From Polytrichum commune (lineage: Eukaryota > Streptophyta > Polytrichopsida > Polytrichales > Polytrichaceae): DNA of 64,000 nt. Location of the stretch: assembly GCA_950295325.1 (NCBI GenBank), contig OX485808.1:8806501-8870500 (forward strand). The letters run 5' to 3'. Made by a program: the position numbers and the translations under genes. A model generated the notes under the pieces. It was not told where the DNA came from, did no database searches, and saw only the letters and a list, made by a program, of their open reading frames with translations. This document shows positions 470 through 64,000 of the stretch, one piece after another; the first letter of the stretch is position 1; every line of letters begins with the position of its first letter.

Positions 470-860
470 GCGTCTGTGATTTTCCGAGGCTAAAATTCAC
501 ACCGTCTTTGAGTGTGGAGTAATTAATAAAATTTGAAGACGTAGTCCAATCTCTTTTGAACATGTGGATTTATGGTGTTTTTTTTTTGGATCCTCACCTA
601 ACCACACACCAATCAAATCCAATCAACAAAATTAAGCAAATAACACCCGCACACCTCACAAAATGGAAGTTGTGTGCATTAGCAAATTTGCAGTGAAGCA
701 TGGGCTAAAATTGGATTTAAAATTGAACATCTCTTCATTTAGTTATGGTTATCAGGAGTGCATGTTTGTTGATTACTTTTATTGAATACTTAAGTCCTTC
801 CATGTGTGTTCACTATTGAGTGCGGAATGGTTAATAGTATCAAAGACAACTTCAAAACAC
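470..860 (+). repeat. Fragments of a dispersed foldback repeat family
   Basis: About 510-660 holds the family core (TAGTCCAATCTCTTTTGAAC, then a CACCTAACCACACACCAATC-type block). The segment around 800-850 repeats the 'TTCACTATTGAGTG..GAATGGTTAATAG' part. The same blocks recur near 1.56, 4.77, 8.32, 10.88, 37.84, 45.77 and 57.86 kb, in both orientations. The rest of 1-2076 shows no convincing gene; the short open frames there have no recognisable domain. Confidence 0.6.
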
Positions 861-1559
861 TATACACTCGTGAATGTTGGAACACACAGTGAACTTCCCC
901 AAGATAACATTGTACTCCCATGTACTTGCGGTACTCAAAGATGCCATTGTAACCGTAAACTCAAACCTAACATACTCTACGTAATAGGCCACCCCTACAA
1001 CAACCCCCTACCAGTATCCCCCACCCCGTGACTCACCATATAATTTATAGAATTTACATATCGTAGGGACAAATTATTTGTAGAATCCCTCACCAGACTG
1101 ACTACAAAAATGGCTCATCAATAACAAAATTACAAAAAGATGGAAAATAACCCCCCTCATGGTAATTGTAGCTAGTGCAACAACAATCACACACATACCA
1201 TCAATGAATGAAATACTCAAAAACAAAATTAAAGATTCCAAGTACTACAATACAAAATACATTAAAACAAATTAACATAATTGCCACACAATATGCACAC
1301 TTTAAACTTATCCACAAAAGACAACTAGAAAATGGACAATTTGTTGCCAACCTCCATGACCCACCATAGAGCATCACACGGCTTACTAGATATGGGTTAT
1401 ATTTATTGGTTACTGACATAGTGTCTACTCCCTGAAAAGGGTGAAGTAATTGTACATCCAACGTCATTGCCCTTGGCCGTGACCCCAAATGTTTTATGAA
1501 CAACAAACACTCTATCCACTCTAGTCTTCGCCCCTTGGGACCAAAGTTCTTCTTTTAAA

Positions 1560-33309: not shown

Positions 33310-34110
33310 ACAGAAACGTGACAACTCACTCAAAAATTCTTCTGACTTCTTCCAGCCACATAAAAATTCGCGTCCTTCCTAGAAAAAATCAATTACATGA
33401 CAGCGTCACACACAAAACTCGAAGTGCCAAATCAAAAAAACAAGCTCCAGGATTGCTAGCTTCGAAATCAAATGGCAATATTGACACGGAAAGGAGGAAG
33501 CTCTGACAAGAAGAATCAGAAGAATATCTCCACGAAGACAGCACCAAATCGAGTGCACTAATCGTAAACACAACAAACACAAAATACTAACTCGCTCAAA
33601 CTTCTGCCGACTTCCAGGGACAAAAATTTGCGTTCTTGTCAAGAAAATTACGCCACGGCGCCACACACGAGTAGTAGTGGCGGATAATAATAAACAAGGC
33701 GGATAAGTTAGAAGCTTCGAATATAGCTAACTTGGAAATCAAATGCAATCGCCATGAAACGAACACGTAGGGAGCTCCGATGACAAGAAGGAGGAGGAGC
33801 GTCTGTTTAAGAATACTGCACCAAATCGAGTGTTAATCGTAAACACTACAAACACAAAACACGAACTCACTCAAACTTCTGCCGACTTCCGTAGACAAAA
33901 CTTTTGCGTGCTTGCTGGAGAAATTACGCCACGGTGCCACACACGAGTAGCAGTGGCGGATGATAAAAAGAAGGCGGATAAACTACAAGCTCCCAATATA
34001 GCTAGCTATGAAATCCAAATGCAATCGACACAGAACGGCCAGGAAGGGAGCTTCGATGACAAGAAGGAGGAGGAGCGTAAGTTTAAGAATACTATACCAA
34101 ATCGAGTGCG
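33310..34110. repeat. Tandem repeat of ~276 bp, about three copies, upstream of callose synthase
   Basis: The landmark ACCAAATCGAGTG occurs at 33543, 33820 and 34096 (steps 277 and 276). AACTC(A/G)CTCAAA occurs near 33322, 33588 and 33863. Shared blocks include CTTCTGCCGACTTCC, TTACGCCACGG(C/T)GCCACACACGAG and GGAGCT(C/T)CGATGACAAGAAG. The first copy is most diverged. The 162-codon open frame at 33830-34318 (+) falls in these repeats and is not convincing as a gene. Confidence 0.75.
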
Positions 34111-41146: not shown

Positions 41147-43189
41147 GGAGATTGAGTGAACATAGTGTTAGTTATTTAGAACATCTTTGGTCCCATCCTA
41201 AAGGGCGATGACTTCATATGTAAAACTATTGCACCCTTTCAGATTTTAGACACTACATTAGTAGTCGGTAACCAATTTTTATAATTAATATAATATAATA
41301 TAATATAAGTAGTAGTGTTGAGAAGTTAGACTTTAAGGGTGGGTTATGGGGTGTGTGGAAACTAGGTCAATGAGCTCCATGTTGGTTGGGAGTGAATGTT
41401 TAGTTCCATATTATCTTGTTCGGGTTTGATTTATGTTGAATTTGTTTGATTGGGTGTGGATGAAAATGACATGATGTTGCCATGGGAGTAGATGCATGAA
41501 ATATATTTATTAGCTAGCGGCCTATCCCAAAGCATTTGGTAGTTGAGCTAGAACACTGATGGTGTGTGCCACTATTTGAGTAATGCAATTTAGTTTGGTT
41601 TGGTTTTTTGTTTTAAATAATTATATATGATTCTGATATTTATTATTCTATTGTGTGTGGGGTGTGCCACAAGTGGCTTTCAAACTGTAGTTTGTCTAAG
41701 ACAAGTCTTGGAGATTTGCAACCAATTGTTAGTTTTCAAGTCTATGTTTGTGGACTAATACGGACTTACGAATGGCATAATTGTGCTAGGATAATGATTT
41801 TTTTGTCATATTTGAGGATATGTTTTCTACGTGCTCAATGGGGCCTTTGTGTGGTGTTTCAAGTATAGAGTGCCACCATTCTTTTTGGAAACAATGGGGG
41901 ATGGAGTGTGCATGTTCATATGGTTACCATTCTATAGCTTACTATGTGATCAAGTTTACAATCTCGTTTGGCTAGTTTGACAACTTGTTTGTTTCCATCA
42001 ATGTTAGCGTGGGCTCTTATTTTATGGAGTGTGGTGATCTGTGTGCATGATTGTAGCATATGGACCATGCATTCTAGGATTATTTTGTCATGGTGGCTAT
42101 TGTGTAAGGTGGGGTGATTGATTTGGGTATTTAGCAAGTATAAGAGTATCTCGGGGGGTTCACTGGCGAAAATCGTAGAACAACGTTAGCAATGTTAAAC
42201 ATTTGTTGTATGTATTCATTGGTTCCAATAGGTGTATTACTATGGTGTATGCAAGTACTGTGTGTGGCACACTTTTCTATTTTAGGTTTAGTTCTAAGTT
42301 CTAGTTGGGATTGTTGGTTCTTTGTACGTAATGGTATTGGCTTTAAAGTGTGTAATGAGGTGTATGTCGGGGAATGGTCCATCATGGGAGTTGGAGTTGT
42401 GGTACCAAATTTTGTCTAGTGCTACCAAGATGGTAATAGATTCTGGGTCATTTTTGGTTGCCCAATGAAGAGTTCGTTGTGTCTCCTTCTACACGTTTGG
42501 GTTGGCATATCCAATCCTGTGCCATTCTTGGCGGAGGTTGTTCCTAGTGATCCAAATACGACATCTATTGAGAAATTATGAATTAAAATGATTGAATAGG
42601 GAGGAACATGTCATCGGCAATGAGAAGTATGAATGGGTTATTTGGAAGGAGTTGAAGAAAAAAATAAAGAAAGAAAAAATGTCAAAGTCTTTAACCTTGA
42701 CATGTGATGTGCATTCAACACCTCCCTCTCATGTTTGTATGAGCATGAGTGGGGGTGGCTTAGTGCCTTTTTTCATAGGTGGACCATGTGGTTAGTGTCA
42801 AGGCTACGTGTTCTATGTTTGTTTCGGGTTTTAGTGTTAGTAAGTGTGTTTAATCAAGTGGGATCGGGGTTGTTTATTTTCTAATTTCTGTTTGTTTGGG
42901 ATTATATGTTATTGAAACTCAATAGGACTAGAAATGAGATTACAGAAGCATATTACACAAACATAAAGGCATATGAACAATGTTTGGAGTGAGACAATCT
43001 CATGCTCTCCTTGATTTGCCTTTTATTGCTTTTCTTCTTTACCTTGGTTCATGTAAACAATATGGGATAACTCTTATCCTTCTCGGACCATCATTGTGGC
43101 TTTATTCTAGCCTTATTGTTTCTCATGCCTCTTCCATTACATTTTTATTGACTACGAGCAATCTAATATGTGTGTTAGGTACCTTATAG
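41147..43189. other. Intergenic, T/G-rich region
   Basis: The + strand is rich in T and G, with no convincing gene. A pentanucleotide run (TAATA)n lies at 41284-41309. The open frames on either strand are short and lack known motifs. Confidence 0.4.
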
Positions 43190-43440
43190 CAATTGGGGAG
43201 AGCTAGTTTATGGGGTTTGGAGCTAGGGATTTGTAGGTCTTGGAGGAGTTTAACAATTGTTGTATGTATAGATCCCCTTTTCCCTACTGTGATTATAATG
43301 GGTGAGAGTACAATCCATCCTTGTTGGGATAGGAGTGGGTGGAGAATGGTGTATTTATCAAGTTTTCGGTTGGTGGCTTCTATGGGGAATCTATCATCAT
43401 AATAAGTGTATTCAAGTTATTTAGAAGGAGTTGACAATAT
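43190..43440 (-). pseudogene. Decayed retroelement-like coding remnant
   Basis: Read on the minus strand, one frame gives YDDRFPIEATNRKLDKYTIL, then a GWIVLSPIIITVGKRGSIHT stretch. A neighbouring frame gives AIRYLTHIL just after it. This resembles, from memory, the tail of reverse-transcriptase polyproteins of non-LTR elements ('KLDKY..L...L...GW.V.PL..IT.G.RG.IH', then 'AIKYLTYI'). A frame change and stops show decay. Upstream (43440-44400, -) a similarly broken frame seems to continue. The family assignment is tentative. Confidence 0.35.
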
Positions 43441-43670
43441 GCTCAAGTGTTGTCTGCGGAAGTGTGTATTGTGTGAATTTGAGAGGGTCATTCTTTGCAA
43501 TGCGGTATTTATATCTTTTGTACAACCATATGAATTCCATTTGAAATGATTGAGTAGGGGGGTCCAAGTTATGGGGTTTATTTAATGATAAGTGGTATTG
43601 CGTCCATAACCAATGTAATCTTGTTTTGGGGATGGTGATGCAATGTTTGTTGTTGGTTATTTATTTTATT

Positions 43671-43692
43671 TATAATATAATATAATATAATA
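43671..43692. repeat. TAATA pentanucleotide microsatellite
   Basis: Four or more TAATA units, like the run at 41284-41309. Confidence 0.7.
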
Positions 43693-44203
43693 AATTTTGT
43701 AGAGGTGGGCCACATCATGTTGTGTTTGGATGGTGTTTTTGTTATATGCAATATCATTTTCTGGGTTGCATTTGCTAGTGAAGATGGTGCATTGGGGGAT
43801 GGTTTGTGGTGGTAGAATGTATCTAGTGTCTTCCACTTGTTCTTGGTTAAACTAGGTGTGGATTATATTTGTGAATGTTGGTGCTACTTTCAGGTGTAGT
43901 ATTGTGTGAGTAGCAAGATGTTGTGGTTAATGGTGTTTCAATCATTCCATGGAAATAATGTGCTTTGTGGGAGCCATTTGTTGTAAATTGTGTTATTGGG
44001 TACTGTCCATTAGCATAAGTATGATGTAAGTTTTTTGGTTATTTTGTATTATTTTGTATATTTATTGGGGCAGTCATTGAGTATGATGCGGATTGGGAAG
44101 TGTATGGGGTCTTTGAGAATGTTGGGGGGTGGCTTAAAGTGTTCCGGGTGTGGTGGAGGTTGGAGGGGGTTGGAGTGCTCATTTGGTCTCGGGGTTAGTG
44201 TGG

Positions 44204-53277: not shown

Positions 53278-54036
53278 GGCGGCCGCACACCCCCTTGCCG
53301 CGAAGACGACGTGAAGGTACCGCTTCGGCCGTGGACGTCGCCATTTCTCTGCCTCCCTGCAACTATAGGGTAAGACCTACACAATGGCACCAAGAGAAAT
53401 GGTTTAGTCTTGGTTGTGGCAATGTAGAAGCGAGTGACAATGCAATAAGACCGAATTAGGGTTTCATCATTAATTGGGGGGTGCTCATTGATTACTGAAT
53501 TTTGTAGTCATACTAGTCGTCACAGACACATGGCTGTTTATTTAGGGTCAGACTTGTGACTTGTGTGACTGCATGACTACAAGTAGTCATAATTAGGACT
53601 ACATGACTAAATCTAGTCAGATGTAGGGACAAAGTGACTACAGGTAGTCATATCACTGCTAGAGAATGATGTCCAAATCAACAAATAACCAACTATTTTT
53701 TGTTGAACTGTGTACGTCAATGACCATTTCAACAAAATTCTAATATTTTGTCAATTTGAACAAAATGAGTGTTCTTTTTTCTGTTAGATTACGTACTGTA
53801 CCTTTTCTTCGACAAATTAATGGGCTTTTAGATTTGGATATGCTGATATGACGATATTCAAAGGAAATAATTATTTTATTTTATTTTTTGTATTCACAAA
53901 AATGTATAAAGTTCTAACCCTGCACCACTTGCGCTGATGTTTTTCATCCATCCATTTTTTAATTTTTCCCTAAGGTTTAATAACATTTGTATGGGAAGGA
54001 TCATCAAAATATGAGAATGTGAACTTCTGAAAAATT

Positions 54037-54436
54037 ACATAAATAGCGGTTTTTGCAAAAAAACATACTCAGAGGTAAAATGTTTTTACATAAATAGCGG
54101 TTTTTGCAAAAAACATACTCAGAGGTAAATTTTTTTTACATAAATAGCGGTTTTTGCAAAAAATATACTCAGAGGTAAAATATTTTTACATAAATAGCGG
54201 TTTTTGCAAAAAACATACTCAGAGGTAAAATGTTTTTACATAAATAGCGGTTTTTGCAAAAAAACATACTCAGAGGTATAATGTTTTTACATAAATAGCG
54301 GTTTTTGCAAAAAAAACATACTCAAAGGTAAAATGTTTTTACATAAATAGCGGTTTTTGCAAAAAACATACTCAAAGGTATAATGTTTTTACATAAATAG
54401 TGGTTTTTGCAAAAAACATACTCAGAGGTAAAACAA
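54037..54436. repeat. Tandem repeat, 8 copies of 50-52 bp
   Basis: The word ACATAAATAG(C/T)GGTTTTTGC starts at 54037, 54088, 54138, 54188, 54238, 54289, 54341 and 54391. Each unit continues AAAAAACATACTCAGAGGTA and a T run. Length differences lie mostly in the A and T runs. A lone GAATAGCGGTTTTTAG follows at about 54449. Confidence 0.9.
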
Positions 54437-58184: not shown

Positions 58185-58648
58185 TGTTGGACAAAACCCA
58201 ACCAATCATATCCCAACCATGGCACTCAAACCTAATATGAGATACACCCACTACTTAGTCCCTAAATTTGACCCCTTTGAAAATATGAATTAGAGATTTA
58301 GAAATTCAAAGTCTCACATGTAAACATTCTTGTTTAAACATTTACATTTGTTTTTAACATGAACATATTTCATCAAGTCATCCAAAGTTGGCATAACCTT
58401 ATTTTTAGTAGTTGTCGGTTTGTGAAATTGTTAGAGGCCCCAAAGATACTAACTTAAACGAGGAAGAATGAAGAGCTGCCGAGAGCTTCGTATTTTCTGG
58501 AGAGGTGAGTGACTGAGGAGTTAGCCGCTGTGGAATGATGTGTGTGCTGCCTGGAGCTGGACTTGCAGTCACCCCGCACACATTAGAGAAACAGTAAGGT
58601 CAGCGTGTTTGTAGAGGTGCTTAATGTGTTGGGAGGGGTACATATGCA
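58185..58648 (+). mobile_element. Putative 5' LTR of a retrotransposon
   Basis: The segment starts TGTTGGACAAAACCC and ends ATATGCA, giving TG...CA ends, and is followed after 4 bases by a primer-binding site. The 3' LTR would lie beyond the window, so the start is a guess based on the TGTTGG form and the end on the primer site. Confidence 0.45.
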
Positions 58649-58652
58649 TGCT

Positions 58653-58664
58653 TGGTATCAGATC
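58653..58664 (+). promoter_or_regulatory. Putative primer-binding site (initiator Met tRNA type)
   Basis: TGGTATCAGATC matches 11 of 12 bases of TGGTATCAGAGC, the usual primer-binding site of plant LTR retrotransposons. Confidence 0.55.
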
Positions 58665-59086
58665 TAAAGATTGAAGTATGTGAGAGTGAGAGTTGAGATT
58701 TCAAAAATTAGAGCATTCTGATGAGTTGGGGCCCTGATTGGTTACATATTAGAAAACTTCATCTCCCTGCTTGTAGACTTTAGATCTGAATCGAAGCACC
58801 ACATCGTGTGAGGAAACGAAGCACCAAGGACACAAACACACTGATACTCACGGTCGCAGCACTGATCCAGGATCACACTCCTGACAATAGATAGAACGCT
58901 ATACAGAAGGAGCCATAGGCTTCTTCTCCTTGTCATACACATTGCAATAACATTCTCCCTACTCCCTCTATCTAGCACAGGTACATGGACAACAGATCCA
59001 ACTAGATCGAGTTTACACCCATCTACACCGAATCTGCACCCAATGTGCACGCCAACCTGCACCGAATCTATCAACACCACGCTGGA
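58665..59086 (+). other. Leader of the putative retroelement
   Basis: No long open frame starts here. Towards its end the words ACACCGAA and CACCGAATCT appear, which become regular repeats from 59.35 kb. Confidence 0.35.
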
Positions 59087-59842
59087 ATGAAGAAGAGGAT
59101 CGAACCGTCACCGAAAGAAAGCCACACCGAAACAACAGAGAGGATCGAACTGTCACCGAAATCGAAAGAGAGCCACACCGAAACGGAGGCGAGGACCGAG
59201 CCCACAGAGGGGACCTGCTACACCGAAGGGGAGGAGATCCAGCCTGCAACAAGATTAGACTTCACCGAAAAGGAGGGGAACCGGGAGCTGGAGATCGCGA
59301 AATATGAAGAGTAAAAATCAAAAGTGCCAGCGATCCACAACGAAGGCACCACTACACCGAAACCAATAGCGAGCTACACCGAATCAATCCCATCGCCAGA
59401 AAGCACACCGAAATCTGTAGCAGTCTACACCGAATCAATCCCATTGCCGGAAAACACACCGAATTCTGTAGCAGTCTACACCGAATCAATCCCAGCGCCG
59501 AAAAACACACCGACCTCTGTGGCAGTCTACACCGAATCACCGAACTCTGTGGCAGTCTACACCGAATCGCCGAACTCTGTGGCAATCTACACCGAATCAA
59601 TCCCATCGCCGAAAAACACACCGAACTCTGTGGCAGACTACACCGAATCAATCCCAGCGCCGAAAAACACACCGAACTCTGTGGCAGTCTACACCGAATC
59701 AATCCCAGCGCCGAAAAACACACCGAACTCTGTGGCAGTCTACACCGAATCAATCCCAGCGCCGAAAGCCGAAACCCAGCAATCTGCAGGTACAATAAAG
59801 CCACAGAGATCTACAGCAACCGAGGAGAACAACACCAAATAA
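59087..59842 (+). CDS. Thr/Glu/Pro-rich repeat reading frame, broken by one stop
   Basis: From ATG 59087 one frame reads HTET/YTEG-like words to a TAA at 59312-59314. It then stays open to the TAA at 59840-59842. The second part is a repeat of PKNTPNSVAVYTESIPA (17 residues). There is no ATG right after the internal stop. It may be a short protein, a decayed part of the large frame's leader, or simply a side effect of in-phase repeats. I do not recognise a family. Confidence 0.35.
59374..59790 (+). repeat. 51-bp coding-like tandem repeat, nine units
   Basis: The word CTACACCGAATC starts at 59374, 59425, 59476, 59527, 59557, 59587, 59638, 59689 and 59740. The steps are 51, 51, 51, 30, 30, 51, 51 and 51 bp. 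The two short steps lack 21 bp. All steps are multiples of three. Confidence 0.9.
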
Positions 59843-59874
59843 GAGGACACACAACTGCTAAGAACCCAAACTCG

Positions 59875-62800
59875 ATGGCAATGCCGAAAACCTCACACCG
59901 AAATGGGAGCACATCAGGCGGGAGCCTAATCCCCATGGCCCTGGCAAAAGTTTTCAGGGCAGAAGAAGATGTGATGGAGATAGACTCCCCTGCCCAGAGT
60001 CTCAAACAACTGTTGGTAGAGAAGGCCAAAATGCCGCCCGAAGGGGCAGCGAGCGGGAAGCGAAGTCGGGACCCAACAGTAACGCCTCCACACTTACCGT
60101 CACCACCGAAAGTGACCCAAGCCACGGCACCCACTTCCAAACAGCCACTTAAACTTTGGCTAGGGTTCGATGTTATGGAGAAACTTGCCATGGACCAGGG
60201 ATTAGATGAGTTATACATGGACAAGACCATCGATGACAAAGTTACAAGAGGCATCCCCCGCAAAGAAGCTGAAGAGCTAGACAGTGTAAGCATCTCCTAC
60301 CCTAGAGTGCCACAAATATTGTACCCTAGTAATAGGAGTGATGGATTCCCGGGGCAACATCTTAACCTCACTCAACTACCGTCTGAGATAGAAATTGACC
60401 CTATCTCATGCATGTCTCTAGATTTTCAAATTGCCATTCATTTTCAGCTCCCCAACAACCCCCTCTTCCATAATCATGTGAAAAAGCTTGTCAAAGAAAG
60501 GCTAAATGACATGCATATCCCATTAGGCACTAAACTTATAGAGCCCATCTCAATTCTATGCATGAGTATCAAGAGGGGTGGGATTAAGGGAGTTTGGGCT
60601 GGGATAGTCAAACTCCACCTTCTCCACCCCCAAGTTGATGGAGTAGCACTACTCACGGGTCTTAGACCCTTTGTCCTCCACCTTGAGCCCCACTCAAACG
60701 TTGGAAGTCTTGGCAAGGTATGCAAGTCATATCACTCCATTGCTAGAAGCAACAACCTCTCCATCAAAATCTCAAATGACACATTGATTGGTATACCATC
60801 TCATGCTCTTTTTCTTGATATCCTAGAAAATAGCTTTAGGAGAGGCCATAATTTCGAGATTGTAGAGGTACAAAAGAGTACCACTAACAACCATGCTTAC
60901 ATTGTTGCTCCTACCCCCCACCAAGCCCAAAAAATCCAAAAACTCCAAGTATCTACACATCACCAAATCCTTGAAGGTCAAGTGACAAAAGGTCCCTCTC
61001 TTACTTTGGAGCAAAAGGCAAAGAAAGAGGCTCTTACCCTAACCTTCTACAACCTCCCCATTTTGATGAATATTAATGATACCTCCCTTGAAATTTGCAA
61101 AGTATTAGGAACCAAAAATGTTGTATCCATTTGGTTCCACAAGCAAGATGGCTTGAGACACAATGGTAGTGCAAATGTGGAATGCCTTAACCCCTTTGTG
61201 TATAGGAAGTTTGTAGGGAAAGAAGCAAAAATTGGAGCCTACCATGTGGAAATTACCCCACACCGCCAAAGCCTTGACGGTAATGACAAACCCACCAAAG
61301 AATTACTAATCAAATTTGGTTTTGAAGATATTAATACGTGTTTGGTAAACACAATTGAAGCCATCCAAAACCAAACCCAAGAGGAGACTAGTGCAACAAA
61401 GGAAGACGCTTTCATCGGCATGAAGGAGGCAATTGAAGAAGGCAACAAGAAACTCAAACTTGAACTTCACAAAGACATGAAGGACTTAAAGGATGATATA
61501 GTAAGAGAGGCACACATCTATGCGGATGAAATAAACGATAAATTAAAAAAGCAAATGTTGGACATCCAAAGCACTTTGACCTTGGCACTTACCGGAATGC
61601 AACCTCATGCTAAAAGACCAACCACATGTGGAATGACCACAAACCGCCAAGTAAAAAAAAAGTATTTACAACAATACTACCTCATATACGTAGACGTATA
61701 TAGATATAGTAGTATACAAAAAATATGTCATAGTATCATACATAGTACTATACATCGTAATTTTTCTTATATAAAATACAAACATACCCCACATCCATAC
61801 CTATACGGTATGTTCCAAAAAATCACTCATCCAATACACAAACTAAAATACAAAACCCACCCATACAACAACTTCCATACAAAATACAACCTCAGTATAA
61901 AATACAGTAGTCATCTAAATCGGAAAATACCCCGACCTCATCCAAAAAACAATTATCATCTAAGACATAGTCTTCATCCAAGGCACCGTCTTCTCCCAAA
62001 AAACAATCTTCATCCGAAATACGGAAGGTACCCAAAACACATACTCCACCCAAAAAACAAACTTCATCCAAAACATGGACTCCACCCAAAACACAAATTA
62101 CATTCAAAACACATATCTCATCCAAAAGATAGCTCACACCCAAAACAAGAAATCCATCCTAACTTAAGGACACATCCACAAAATAAACTCCATCCTAAAC
62201 ACAACTCCCATCCAAACCCCAAACTTTGTCCCCACTCAAATCCTAACTCCCACTCAAAATACAAACTCTACCCAAAAAATAAAACGGCCTCGGCCTACCG
62301 GCCTCGCCACATAACTAAGTGCAAACACCACTTCACAAACAATTGGAAACCTAACTCAATACCAAATCAAATACCTAAAAACTATGCAAAATCACACCCC
62401 TTACCCATACAACAAGAAAACATAATGCCCGCCCTACCCAACATTTTCTCTACAACAAAACTTGCACTCATTAAATATCAAAAACTAAATAAGAAAAAAC
62501 CAAAAATACCTCACTTATATGGATACTACTTCATTACATCAAGTACATCAAGTATGTATCAAAAATCTACACATAAACCAAATTACACTAATCACCCATA
62601 CAATAACAACTACCCAAAACACACTTTCCGAACAAAATACAACACCCACCCAAATTATACCTCTCATCCAAAACACAAAATACAAAGGCCTCACCCAAAA
62701 TACAGATATTACCCTCATCCTAAATCCAAACCGCAACCAAAACAAAAACCACACCCAAAACTAAATCCCCCCCTCACCCCTAAACATTCAAGTAACATTA

Positions 62801-64000
62801 CACACACCCGGAAACACGAAAAGTACCCAAAACACTTACTGCATCCAACAGACTACATTCATCCAAGACACGGACCTCATCCAAAGCACACACTTTACTC
62901 AAAACACATATCCCATCCAAAACATAATCCACACCATAAACAAAGAACCTATCCTAACCTAAAGACATACCAACAAAATAAATTACATCCTAAACACAAA
63001 CCCCATCCAAAACCCATACCTTACCCCCACTCACAACCCAACCCCCACTCAAAGTACAAACAATACTCAACAAACAAAATGACCTCGGCCTACCGACCGC
63101 GCCACAAAACTAATCGAAAATACCACCTCACTAACTGGGAACCTACCCCAATAACAAATCAAATACCTAATTTATACTATGCGAACTCACACCCCTTAAC
63201 CAAACAACAAGAAAACAGAATACCCGCCCTACACCACATTTCTTCTACAACAAAACTAGCACTCATTAAATATCAAAAACCCAAAATAATTAACCTATAT
63301 AGATACTATCCCTCTACCTCAAGTACATCAAATATAAATAAACCAAATTACACTAACCACCCACATAACAACAACCACCCAAAACATACTCCCCGAACAA
63401 AATACACCACACATCCAAACTATACCTCTCACCCAAAACACAAAATACATTGGCTTCACTCACAATATAGGTACTTCCCAAGAAACGAACTTCATCCTTT
63501 ATCCAAACCGCATAGTCTACACCCAAAACAAAAACCACACCCAAAACTAAATCCCCCCCTCACAACTAAACAATCAAGTAACATTACACACAACCCGAAA
63601 TACGGAAAGTACCCAAAACATATACCAAATCCAACGAACTACTTCCATCCAAGACACGAATTTCATCCAAAGTACATAAGTTACTCAAAACGCATATCTC
63701 ATTCAAAGCATAACCCACACCATGAACAAGGAACCTATCCTAATCTAAAGATATACCCACAAAATAAATTACATCCTAAACACAAACCCCACCCAAAACC
63801 CATACTTTACCCCCACTCACAACCCAACCCCCACTTAAAATACAAACAATACCCAACAAACAAAATGGCCTCGGCCTACCGGCCTCGCCACAAAACTAAC
63901 CGCAAATACCACCTCACTAATTGGAAACCTACCTTAATGACAAATCAAATACCTATATACTACGCGAACTCACACTCCCCACCCAAACAACAAGAAAACA
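59875..64000 (+). CDS. Giant open reading frame, Gag/ORF1-like head and His-Pro-Lys repeat tail, runs off the window
   Basis: From ATG 59875 this frame is open for 1375 codons to the window end; it is in fact open from 59308. I do not recognise the protein. Residues 1-90 are charged and low-complexity. Residues about 90-380 look like a folded domain (LKLWLGFDVMEKLAMDQGLD, LDFQIAIHFQLPNNPLFHNH). Residues about 383-470 resemble an RNA-recognition fold (LTLTFYNLPILMNINDTS, then GSANVECLNPFVYRKFVG). Residues about 500-570 are a likely coiled coil (EEGNKKLKLELHKDMKDLKD). From about residue 635 the sequence is a His/Pro/Lys/Tyr/Asn-rich repeat with at least 23 HPK triplets. A possible splice donor (GTAAAA at 61651) precedes the repeat, so head and tail might not be one protein. 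Position after an LTR-like segment suggests a retroelement protein; that is inference. Confidence 0.6.
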   Translation, partial: MAMPKTSHRNGSTSGGSLIPMALAKVFRAEEDVMEIDSPAQSLKQLLVEKAKMPPEGAASGKRSRDPTVTPPHLPSPPKVTQATAPTSKQPLKLWLGFDVMEKLAMDQGLDELYMDKTIDDKVTRGIPRKEAEELDSVSISYPRVPQILYPSNRSDGFPGQHLNLTQLPSEIEIDPISCMSLDFQIAIHFQLPNNPLFHNHVKKLVKERLNDMHIPLGTKLIEPISILCMSIKRGGIKGVWAGIVKLHLLHPQVDGVALLTGLRPFVLHLEPHSNVGSLGKVCKSYHSIARSNNLSIKISNDTLIGIPSHALFLDILENSFRRGHNFEIVEVQKSTTNNHAYIVAPTPHQAQKIQKLQVSTHHQILEGQVTKGPSLTLEQKAKKEALTLTFYNLPILMNINDTSLEICKVLGTKNVVSIWFHKQDGLRHNGSANVECLNPFVYRKFVGKEAKIGAYHVEITPHRQSLDGNDKPTKELLIKFGFEDINTCLVNTIEAIQNQTQEETSATKEDAFIGMKEAIEEGNKKLKLELHKDMKDLKDDIVREAHIYADEINDKLKKQMLDIQSTLTLALTGMQPHAKRPTTCGMTTNRQVKKKYLQQYYLIYVDVYRYSSIQKICHSIIHSTIHRNFSYIKYKHTPHPYLYGMFQKITHPIHKLKYKTHPYNNFHTKYNLSIKYSSHLNRKIPRPHPKNNYHLRHSLHPRHRLLPKNNLHPKYGRYPKHILHPKNKLHPKHGLHPKHKLHSKHISHPKDSSHPKQEIHPNLRTHPQNKLHPKHNSHPNPKLCPHSNPNSHSKYKLYPKNKTASAYRPRHITKCKHHFTNNWKPNSIPNQIPKNYAKSHPLPIQQENIMPALPNIFSTTKLALIKYQKLNKKKPKIPHLYGYYFITSSTSSMYQKSTHKPNYTNHPYNNNYPKHTFRTKYNTHPNYTSHPKHKIQRPHPKYRYYPHPKSKPQPKQKPHPKLNPPLTPKHSSNITHTRKHEKYPKHLLHPTDYIHPRHGPHPKHTLYSKHISHPKHNPHHKQRTYPNLKTYQQNKLHPKHKPHPKPIPYPHSQPNPHSKYKQYSTNKMTSAYRPRHKTNRKYHLTNWEPTPITNQIPNLYYANSHPLTKQQENRIPALHHISSTTKLALIKYQKPKIINLYRYYPSTSSTSNINKPNYTNHPHNNNHPKHTPRTKYTTHPNYTSHPKHKIHWLHSQYRYFPRNELHPLSKPHSLHPKQKPHPKLNPPLTTKQSSNITHNPKYGKYPKHIPNPTNYFHPRHEFHPKYISYSKRISHSKHNPHHEQGTYPNLKIYPQNKLHPKHKPHPKPILYPHSQPNPHLKYKQYPTNKMASAYRPRHKTNRKYHLTNWKPTLMTNQIPIYYANSHSPPKQQEN
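61860..64000 (+). repeat. ~790-bp tandem repeat, about 2.7 copies, continuing past window
   Basis: CGGCCTACCG occurs at 62291, 63086 and 63872 (steps 795 and 786). (A/G)GTACCCAAAACA is near 62026, 62821 and 63607 (795 and 786). AATTACACTAA(T/C)CACCC is at 62581 and 63346 (765). All steps are multiples of three. The + strand is rich in A and C and poor in G. Each copy keeps a core coding SAYRPRHKTNRKYHLTNW-like residues and HPK-rich stretches. The first copy (61.86-62.55 kb) is partial at its left. Confidence 0.85.

Follow-up and report, generated by a model that had tools for sequence, protein, structure and literature searches.

The open reading frame and the retrotransposon that carries it

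The window analysed here is a stretch of 64,000 nucleotides from Polytrichum commune (assembly GCA_950295325.1, contig OX485808.1, positions 8,806,501 to 8,870,500, forward strand). A plus-strand frame is open from 59308 to the window edge at 64000, with its first ATG at 59875, as had been described in an earlier reading made from the letters of the window (the sequence-only reading) as one open frame of more than 1375 codons with a His-Pro-Lys-rich tail. The frame is real, yet it does not represent a gene of the host, nor does it encode one protein: open reading frame 1 (ORF1) of a non-long-terminal-repeat (non-LTR) retrotransposon, that is, a long interspersed nuclear element (LINE), is joined in it to the leader of ORF2 of the same element. 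The feature in the window corresponds to the 5' half of this element, in a copy that has decayed; the element is about 13.9 kb long and has a leader that is kept readable but is hardly kept the same.

In all of the 13 other copies aligned at the ORF1-leader junction, ORF1 ends at a TGA. A 26-bp deletion at this junction, found in the window copy and absent from the 13 others, fuses ORF1 to the tail frame; one host gene of more than 1375 codons is therefore ruled out. Along the contig the frame reaches its stop after 64071, giving 1399 codons from ATG 59875, 24 of them beyond the window; such a break just past the edge is something that the sequence-only reading had itself named as speaking against it. 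The window copy is also broken downstream, where the ORF2 region beyond 64071 forms at least six separate open stretches of at least 150 codons. Opening by chance is ruled out by dinucleotide shuffles, since the longest frame between ORF1 and the endonuclease has 822 codons in the window copy versus at most 238 in 200 shuffles, and 464-890 codons in the 12 of 12 copies given to the shuffle test versus at most 239 in theirs.

A DNA search of the genome itself (408 Mb, 64 contigs) with positions 59875-62875, in which 32 of 233 candidates were scored, gave at least 149 matches; among those scored, the closest non-self match is 98% identical. A copy on C2 aligns to the window copy at 97% over window numbering 59405-72320, with an additional piece at 96% from 58458. 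Self-comparison, used as a test for long terminal repeats, gives internal repeats only, and the copies are dispersed. Both copies whose 3' end was read finish in (TTA)n. In the C2 copy there is a candidate target-site duplication of 15 bp: 15 bases separate the end of its 5' copy from the aligned start, and its 3' copy shares a few bases with the tail. The candidate of the window copy has 8 bp only. The region is one copy of a dispersed LINE, in which a 5' part with repeats of about 51 bp is followed by ORF1, a leader of variable length, and a conserved block of about 2340 residues. In the copies C4_34, C1_40, and C5_35, an ORF2 frame of 2924, 2919, and 2625 codons, respectively, extends from an overlap with the ORF1 stop, across the leader, and into the enzyme region; in C1_51 the leader is interrupted by a single stop, after which 2663 codons are open.

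The window also holds ORF2 fragments of distant relatives at 41825-44132 (minus strand) and 831-1366 (plus strand), with pieces at 37-57% amino-acid identity; the former sits in a stretch with a GC skew of +0.36.

The leader and the 2A motif

The leader of the window copy runs past the window to a 2A (StopGo) motif at window numbering of about 65045-65071 (L001:1045-1071). The window copy has LDLLQCGDIELNPGPMPDIL here, with the N of NPGP at 65060, and LL..GDI(E/K)xNPGPMPNIL is present in C4_34, C1_40, C5_35, and C1_51. The motif was found in 16 of the 18 copies of a first set, the exceptions (C2_67 and C2_32) being without endonuclease and reverse transcriptase in the fetched stretch, and in its exact form (E or K) in 9 of the 12 copies of a second set. 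A degenerate DNA pattern for it has 272 exact sites genome-wide and none in a reversed control. G, D, I, N, P, G, P, and the next M are invariant in 16/16 copies while their synonymous spellings vary, and E stands at its position in 13/16, in agreement with the 2A core (D/G/C/N)(V/I)ExNPGP.

Leader length is 272-1151 codons in the 16 first-set copies and up to 1927 in the second set. From the ORF1 stop through 2A there are no stops in C4_34 (553 codons), C1_40 (551), and C5_35 (272), versus 19-40 in their other frames, and none over the 891 codons of C5_18. Counted along the full leader, stops in the 2A frame number 0-4 in eight of the 16 first-set copies and 0-6 in four of ten from the second set.

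Selection was assessed by an omega-like ratio, for which amino-acid-changing, silent, and stop-creating differences are compared with the numbers expected under the substitution rates of the alignment concerned. For the leader, read in its own frame and with 19 non-independent pairs (10403 codon comparisons) pooled, the references having been chosen for long open frames, the ratio is 0.95 (bootstrap 0.89-1.00), and stop-creating changes number 36 against 199.5 expected, a ratio of 0.18 (0.12-0.25). The other two frames have omega-like ratios of 1.11 and 1.13 and stop ratios of 0.94 and 1.36. Thus, the sequence-only reading was right to hold that chance does not explain the open frame; change among the copies is near-equal across codon positions, which the same reading had listed as evidence against itself.

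Around 2A, the omega-like ratio (13 pooled pairs) is 0.95 at -300 to -150, 0.65 at -150 to -60, and 0.30 at -60 to +12, followed by 0.26 at +12 to +150 and 0.32-0.48 beyond. Bins more than 300 nt upstream give 1.09-1.28, with stop ratios from 0 to 2.0, values for which the 2A frame was assumed and which mix frames where leaders are shifted; the far leader is therefore judged from the comparisons made in the leader's own frame. The frame of the reverse transcriptase has a ratio of 0.20-0.24 in 8 of 11 pairs, and 0.32, 0.42, and 0.76 in the others. When C5_35 is compared with the window copy, C4_34, and C4_24, the leader has 0.88-0.96, 2A 0.25-0.36, the reverse transcriptase 0.12-0.13, a PCIF1-like domain 0.14-0.17, and RNase H 0.09-0.23. 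Against the distant C1_40, the leader of C5_35 is not alignable, and the ratios are 0.11 for 2A (9 codons only), 0.21 for the reverse transcriptase, 0.38 for the PCIF1-like domain, and 0.29 for RNase H. The leader is therefore kept open with almost no amino-acid constraint, and constraint starts at 2A.

The leader has periodicities of 18 bp and about 790 bp. The latter (about 263 codons) bears out the repeat unit of about 260 residues seen in the sequence-only reading, and it is marked in the window by a GC-rich motif of 23 nt (Table 1). This motif, GGCCTCGGCCTACCGGCCTCGCC, was found with at most six mismatches in the leaders of all 18 copies examined (58 instances); the mean identity of its core is 94%, a value raised by the mismatch limit, versus 76% and 64% in the flanks. 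A 21-base part of it has 221 exact sites in the genome, not all of them confirmed in leaders, and none in the reversed control. Third codon positions show no excess change, and C1_40 reads the motif in another frame; conservation seems to act on the nucleic acid itself. The predicted fold of the motif is better than that of shuffled sequences (z -2.6 to -2.9), but covariation lends an RNA hairpin no support: across 42 distinct instances, 282 of 336 pairs are standard, and the shuffle mean is 282.7. No avoidance of AUG was seen in the leader, where ATG is at or above the dinucleotide expectation in 11 of 12 copies.

The enzyme block, the PCIF1-like domain, and ORF1

In the intact copy C5_35, the conserved block contains QETK, GDFN, SDHYP, YADD, TDGS, and DSLNV in this order, and then CPIC...H...C near the C-terminus, a Cys/His motif recognised by eye. 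We take QETK, GDFN, and SDHYP to be endonuclease motifs, YADD to be that of the reverse transcriptase, and TDGS and DSLNV to be those of RNase H. Pfam finds RVT_1 (1.7e-25), RNase_H (1.9e-13), and PCIF1_WW (2.8e-11) in the element; the endonuclease region has no Pfam match, and its match to ExoIII has only E 0.61. With phmmer, the reverse transcriptase matches R2 at 83 bits and human L1 at 40 bits.

PCIF1 is a cap-specific adenosine methyltransferase with the catalytic motif NPPF. The likeness of the element's domain to it is at the level of Pfam, with a collinear phmmer match (E 0.017) to the solved PCIF1 chains (6irx, 6irv) that spans their ANPPF region. Where those chains have ANPPF, the aligned sequences covering the site have AHPHN (5/7), AYPHN (1/7), or AHPPN (1/7). 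The loss of this motif suggests that the domain is probably non-catalytic and, together with the strong constraint on it, may point to binding rather than catalysis. A genome search with PF12237, in which 150 of 697 candidates were scored, gave at least 150 places, each of them above the cut-off with 42-56 bits; some coincide with reverse transcriptase matches, and not all are confirmed as LINEs. An AlphaFold model of the region was uninformative (mean pLDDT 33.2), and a search of IMG/VR with the PCIF1-like query confirmed no relative.

ORF1 has an omega-like ratio of 0.21-0.27 against ten copies at 13% divergence or more, and of about 1 against the two closest copies, as neutral decay predicts. 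A Pfam search with ORF1 found nothing over the cut-off. Its predicted model, of low confidence (mean pLDDT 54.6), has an RRM-like alternation and a C-terminal helix of 67 residues; in the PDB, RRM proteins make up most of the best matches and L1 ORF1p comes 31st, no match being as good as E 0.001.

Proposed translation of ORF2 and its alternatives

The most likely scheme, to which we give a probability of roughly 0.63, is that the leader is translated as part of ORF2, released at 2A, and selected to be free of stops but not for its amino acids. In intact copies, ORF1 would terminate at its own stop, and the ribosome would then enter the overlapping ORF2 frame; since the offset between the two frames differs between subfamilies (C5_35, C4_34, and C1_40 differ from one another), the mode of entry is guessed to be termination-reinitiation, and one fixed programmed frameshift is unlikely. 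The ribosome would read through the long, freely evolving A/C-rich leader, free it at the predicted site between NPG and P, and continue into the endonuclease, reverse transcriptase, PCIF1-like domain, RNase H, and Cys/His motif. Any stop in the leader would keep the ribosome from reaching the enzymes downstream, whereas most amino-acid changes would be harmless in a product that is released, so that selection would keep the leader stop-free rather than keep its amino acids. Release at 2A would also make the leader product disposable, and tandem arrays could grow inside an open frame. The wider picture, in which the leader is hundreds of codons selected only for readability, with a product disposable via 2A, and is joined to a captured, non-catalytic PCIF1-like domain, is offered tentatively, its chances falling slightly short of even.

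Several observations weigh against the scheme. The 2A frame of the leader has 23-43 stops in the other eight of the 16 first-set copies and 12-90 in the other six of ten from the second set, i.e. many stops in 14/26 overall, and both the non-independence of the pairs and the choice of references in the pooled leader test count on the same side. In C6_20, C6_16, and C7_23, a common run of C13 shifts the frame roughly 225 codons before 2A. Beyond the start of the element, the 5' flanks of these three copies cannot be aligned; the copies thus appear to have inserted independently, and transposition took place in spite of the shifted leader, perhaps with help in trans or through slippage at C13. 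Unbroken passage through the whole leader is therefore probably not strictly required. Moreover, C5_35 and C1_40 have no in-frame AUG at the ORF1 stop, their first in-frame Met lying well downstream. The E position of 2A is K in 3/16 copies; a survey of StopGo sequences describes that position, in its available text, as almost exclusively E (PMC12846837), and the K form may be weak.

At least 94 codons are open before NPGP in 16/16 first-set copies and 9/10 of the second set, even where the leader is shifted. Because of this stretch, a late start of ORF2 is a live rival: the ribosome would reinitiate either close to the last GC-rich motif, at an AUG some 96 codons ahead of NPGP, or at the ATG that directly follows NPGP, and the leader upstream would consist of separately translated or tolerated frames. 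The transposition of the shifted sublineage is in its favour, as are the last motif, which lies in the 2A frame in 14/16 copies and has the ATG in 10/16, and the invariant Met after NPGP (16/16). However, within the core of the motif it is the T of the ATG that is conserved least (69%), which weakens the motif as a start codon. The avoidance of stops holds far upstream of the last motif, C5_18 is open across its entire leader, and a start after NPGP leaves the constraint on 2A itself (0.30) unexplained. We consider a late start unlikely.

It would be more surprising still if the leader were a non-coding spacer that is open by accident of composition and repeats. The tail strand is poor in G (6%, with 32% C), and TAG and TGA are consequently rare in every tail frame; this A/C bias, the two periodicities, and a GC-rich motif that is conserved without an excess of third-position change and read in another frame in C1_40 are what a spacer could have. 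Yet the openness is specific to one frame, both in the stop-creating changes and in the three intact copies whose leaders lack stops in the 2A frame only, and we regard a spacer as quite improbable.

The G-poor strand also accounts in part for the richness in His, Pro, and Lys, which make up 40% of the open frame of the window-copy tail and 31% and 18% of its two closed frames. A functional His/Pro/Lys-rich protein (metal-binding or structural, as the sequence-only reading had suggested, or RNA-binding) is the least probable explanation and can nearly be dismissed: the frame is long, basic, and histidine-rich (30% K+R+H and 1.5% D+E in the window copy) and most pairs show a weak excess of third-position change, but the omega-like ratio is 0.95, no Pfam match was found for the leader protein, its length varies about four-fold among 16 copies, and its composition differs in intact copies, with both closed leader frames of C1_40 richer in H+P+K than the open one.

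Relation to known elements

2A-like sequences have reportedly been described in the non-LTR retrotransposon L1Tc (Heras et al. 2006) and in APE-type elements of multicellular organisms (Odon et al. 2013). The element described here is similar to these in carrying D(V/I)ExNPGP upstream of, and in frame with, the enzymes of a non-LTR element; it differs, as far as their available descriptions go, in its green-plant host, in the length of the leader ahead of 2A (272 to more than 1000 codons), and in the PCIF1-like domain. In the available text of the sources, 2A-bearing non-LTR retrotransposons are known from trypanosomes and sea urchin (PMC4981915, PMC5972666) and are mentioned without hosts (PMC11512398). 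SART1 of the silkworm has an overlapping stop and restart (PMC5972666, available text), and an in-frame AUG likewise overlaps the ORF1 stop in C2_45 and C4_34; however, this overlap is not common to C5_35 and C1_40, and the offset differs between subfamilies.

Plant LINEs are described, in the text available of PMC9033089, as L1, with an (A)n 3' end, and RTE, with a single ORF and a (GTT)n 3' end, and RNase H occurs among them. The element is alike in being a LINE in a plant with RNase H, but its 3' end is (TTA)n and not the (A)n of L1, and it has two ORFs and (TTA)n rather than the single ORF and (GTT)n of RTE; it is filed under neither since it fits neither description. That text does not mention 2A or a PCIF1-like domain for L1 or RTE. 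Among the papers listed in searches of an open-licence library, there was neither a plant LINE with 2A nor a LINE with a PCIF1-like domain. The new points would therefore be a 2A motif in a plant LINE and a constrained PCIF1-like domain that is probably non-catalytic.

StopGo is rare in cellular coding sequences, and its natural use by plant viruses was not found, according to the available text of the survey (PMC12846837). If the proposed scheme is true, a LINE family with 272 exact 2A-type sites would represent natural use of StopGo in a plant, and its leader would decouple two constraints that are usually paired, i.e. staying open and keeping the sequence. The PCIF1-like domain would be a conserved relative of a cap-modifying enzyme, with its catalytic motif gone, inside a retrotransposon polyprotein, and may have a putative cap- or RNA-binding role. 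Tails such as that in the window should not be annotated as host genes.

Other features of the window and the genome

The features of the window copy are collected in Table 1.

Table 1. Positions of the parts of the LINE copy, in window numbering unless a locus is named
Feature	Position	Strand	Basis
LINE 5' part up to ORF1	58458..59934	+	aligned to C2 copy from 58458
~51-bp tandem array in LINE 5' part	59374-59767		tandem-repeat detection
ORF1	59935..61602	+	first in-frame ATG 59875; homologous Met 59935; omega-like 0.21-0.27
Fusion junction	61601..61602	+	private 26-bp deletion removing ORF1 end; alignment with 13 other copies
A/C-rich repetitive ORF2 leader (His-Pro-Lys tail)	61603..64000	+	stop observed/expected 0.18, omega-like 0.95; 2A motif downstream
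GC-rich 23-nt motif, copy 1	62286..62308	+	0 mismatches to reference
GC-rich 23-nt motif, copy 2	63081..63103	+	3 mismatches to reference
GC-rich 23-nt motif, copy 3	63867..63889	+	0 mismatches to reference
PCIF1-like domain	L001:5443-6357 (window numbering 69443-70357)		Pfam; within LINE polyprotein

An Rfam scan of the window gave zero matches at the gathering threshold. Two further tandem repeats are present in the window: 7.9 copies of a 50-bp unit at 54035-54433 (94% matches), in AT-rich surroundings, and a 276-bp unit repeated twice at 33534-34108 (84% matches). In the genome, a TTTAGGG array starts at one contig end and there are 58 chlorophyll a/b-binding matches, as is to be expected of a green plant; some of the best solved light-harvesting relatives come from a moss. 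Of the 58 matches, 14 that are equal in score lie within about 95 kb (G000:C5:1751760-1846160) and represent a tandem amplification.

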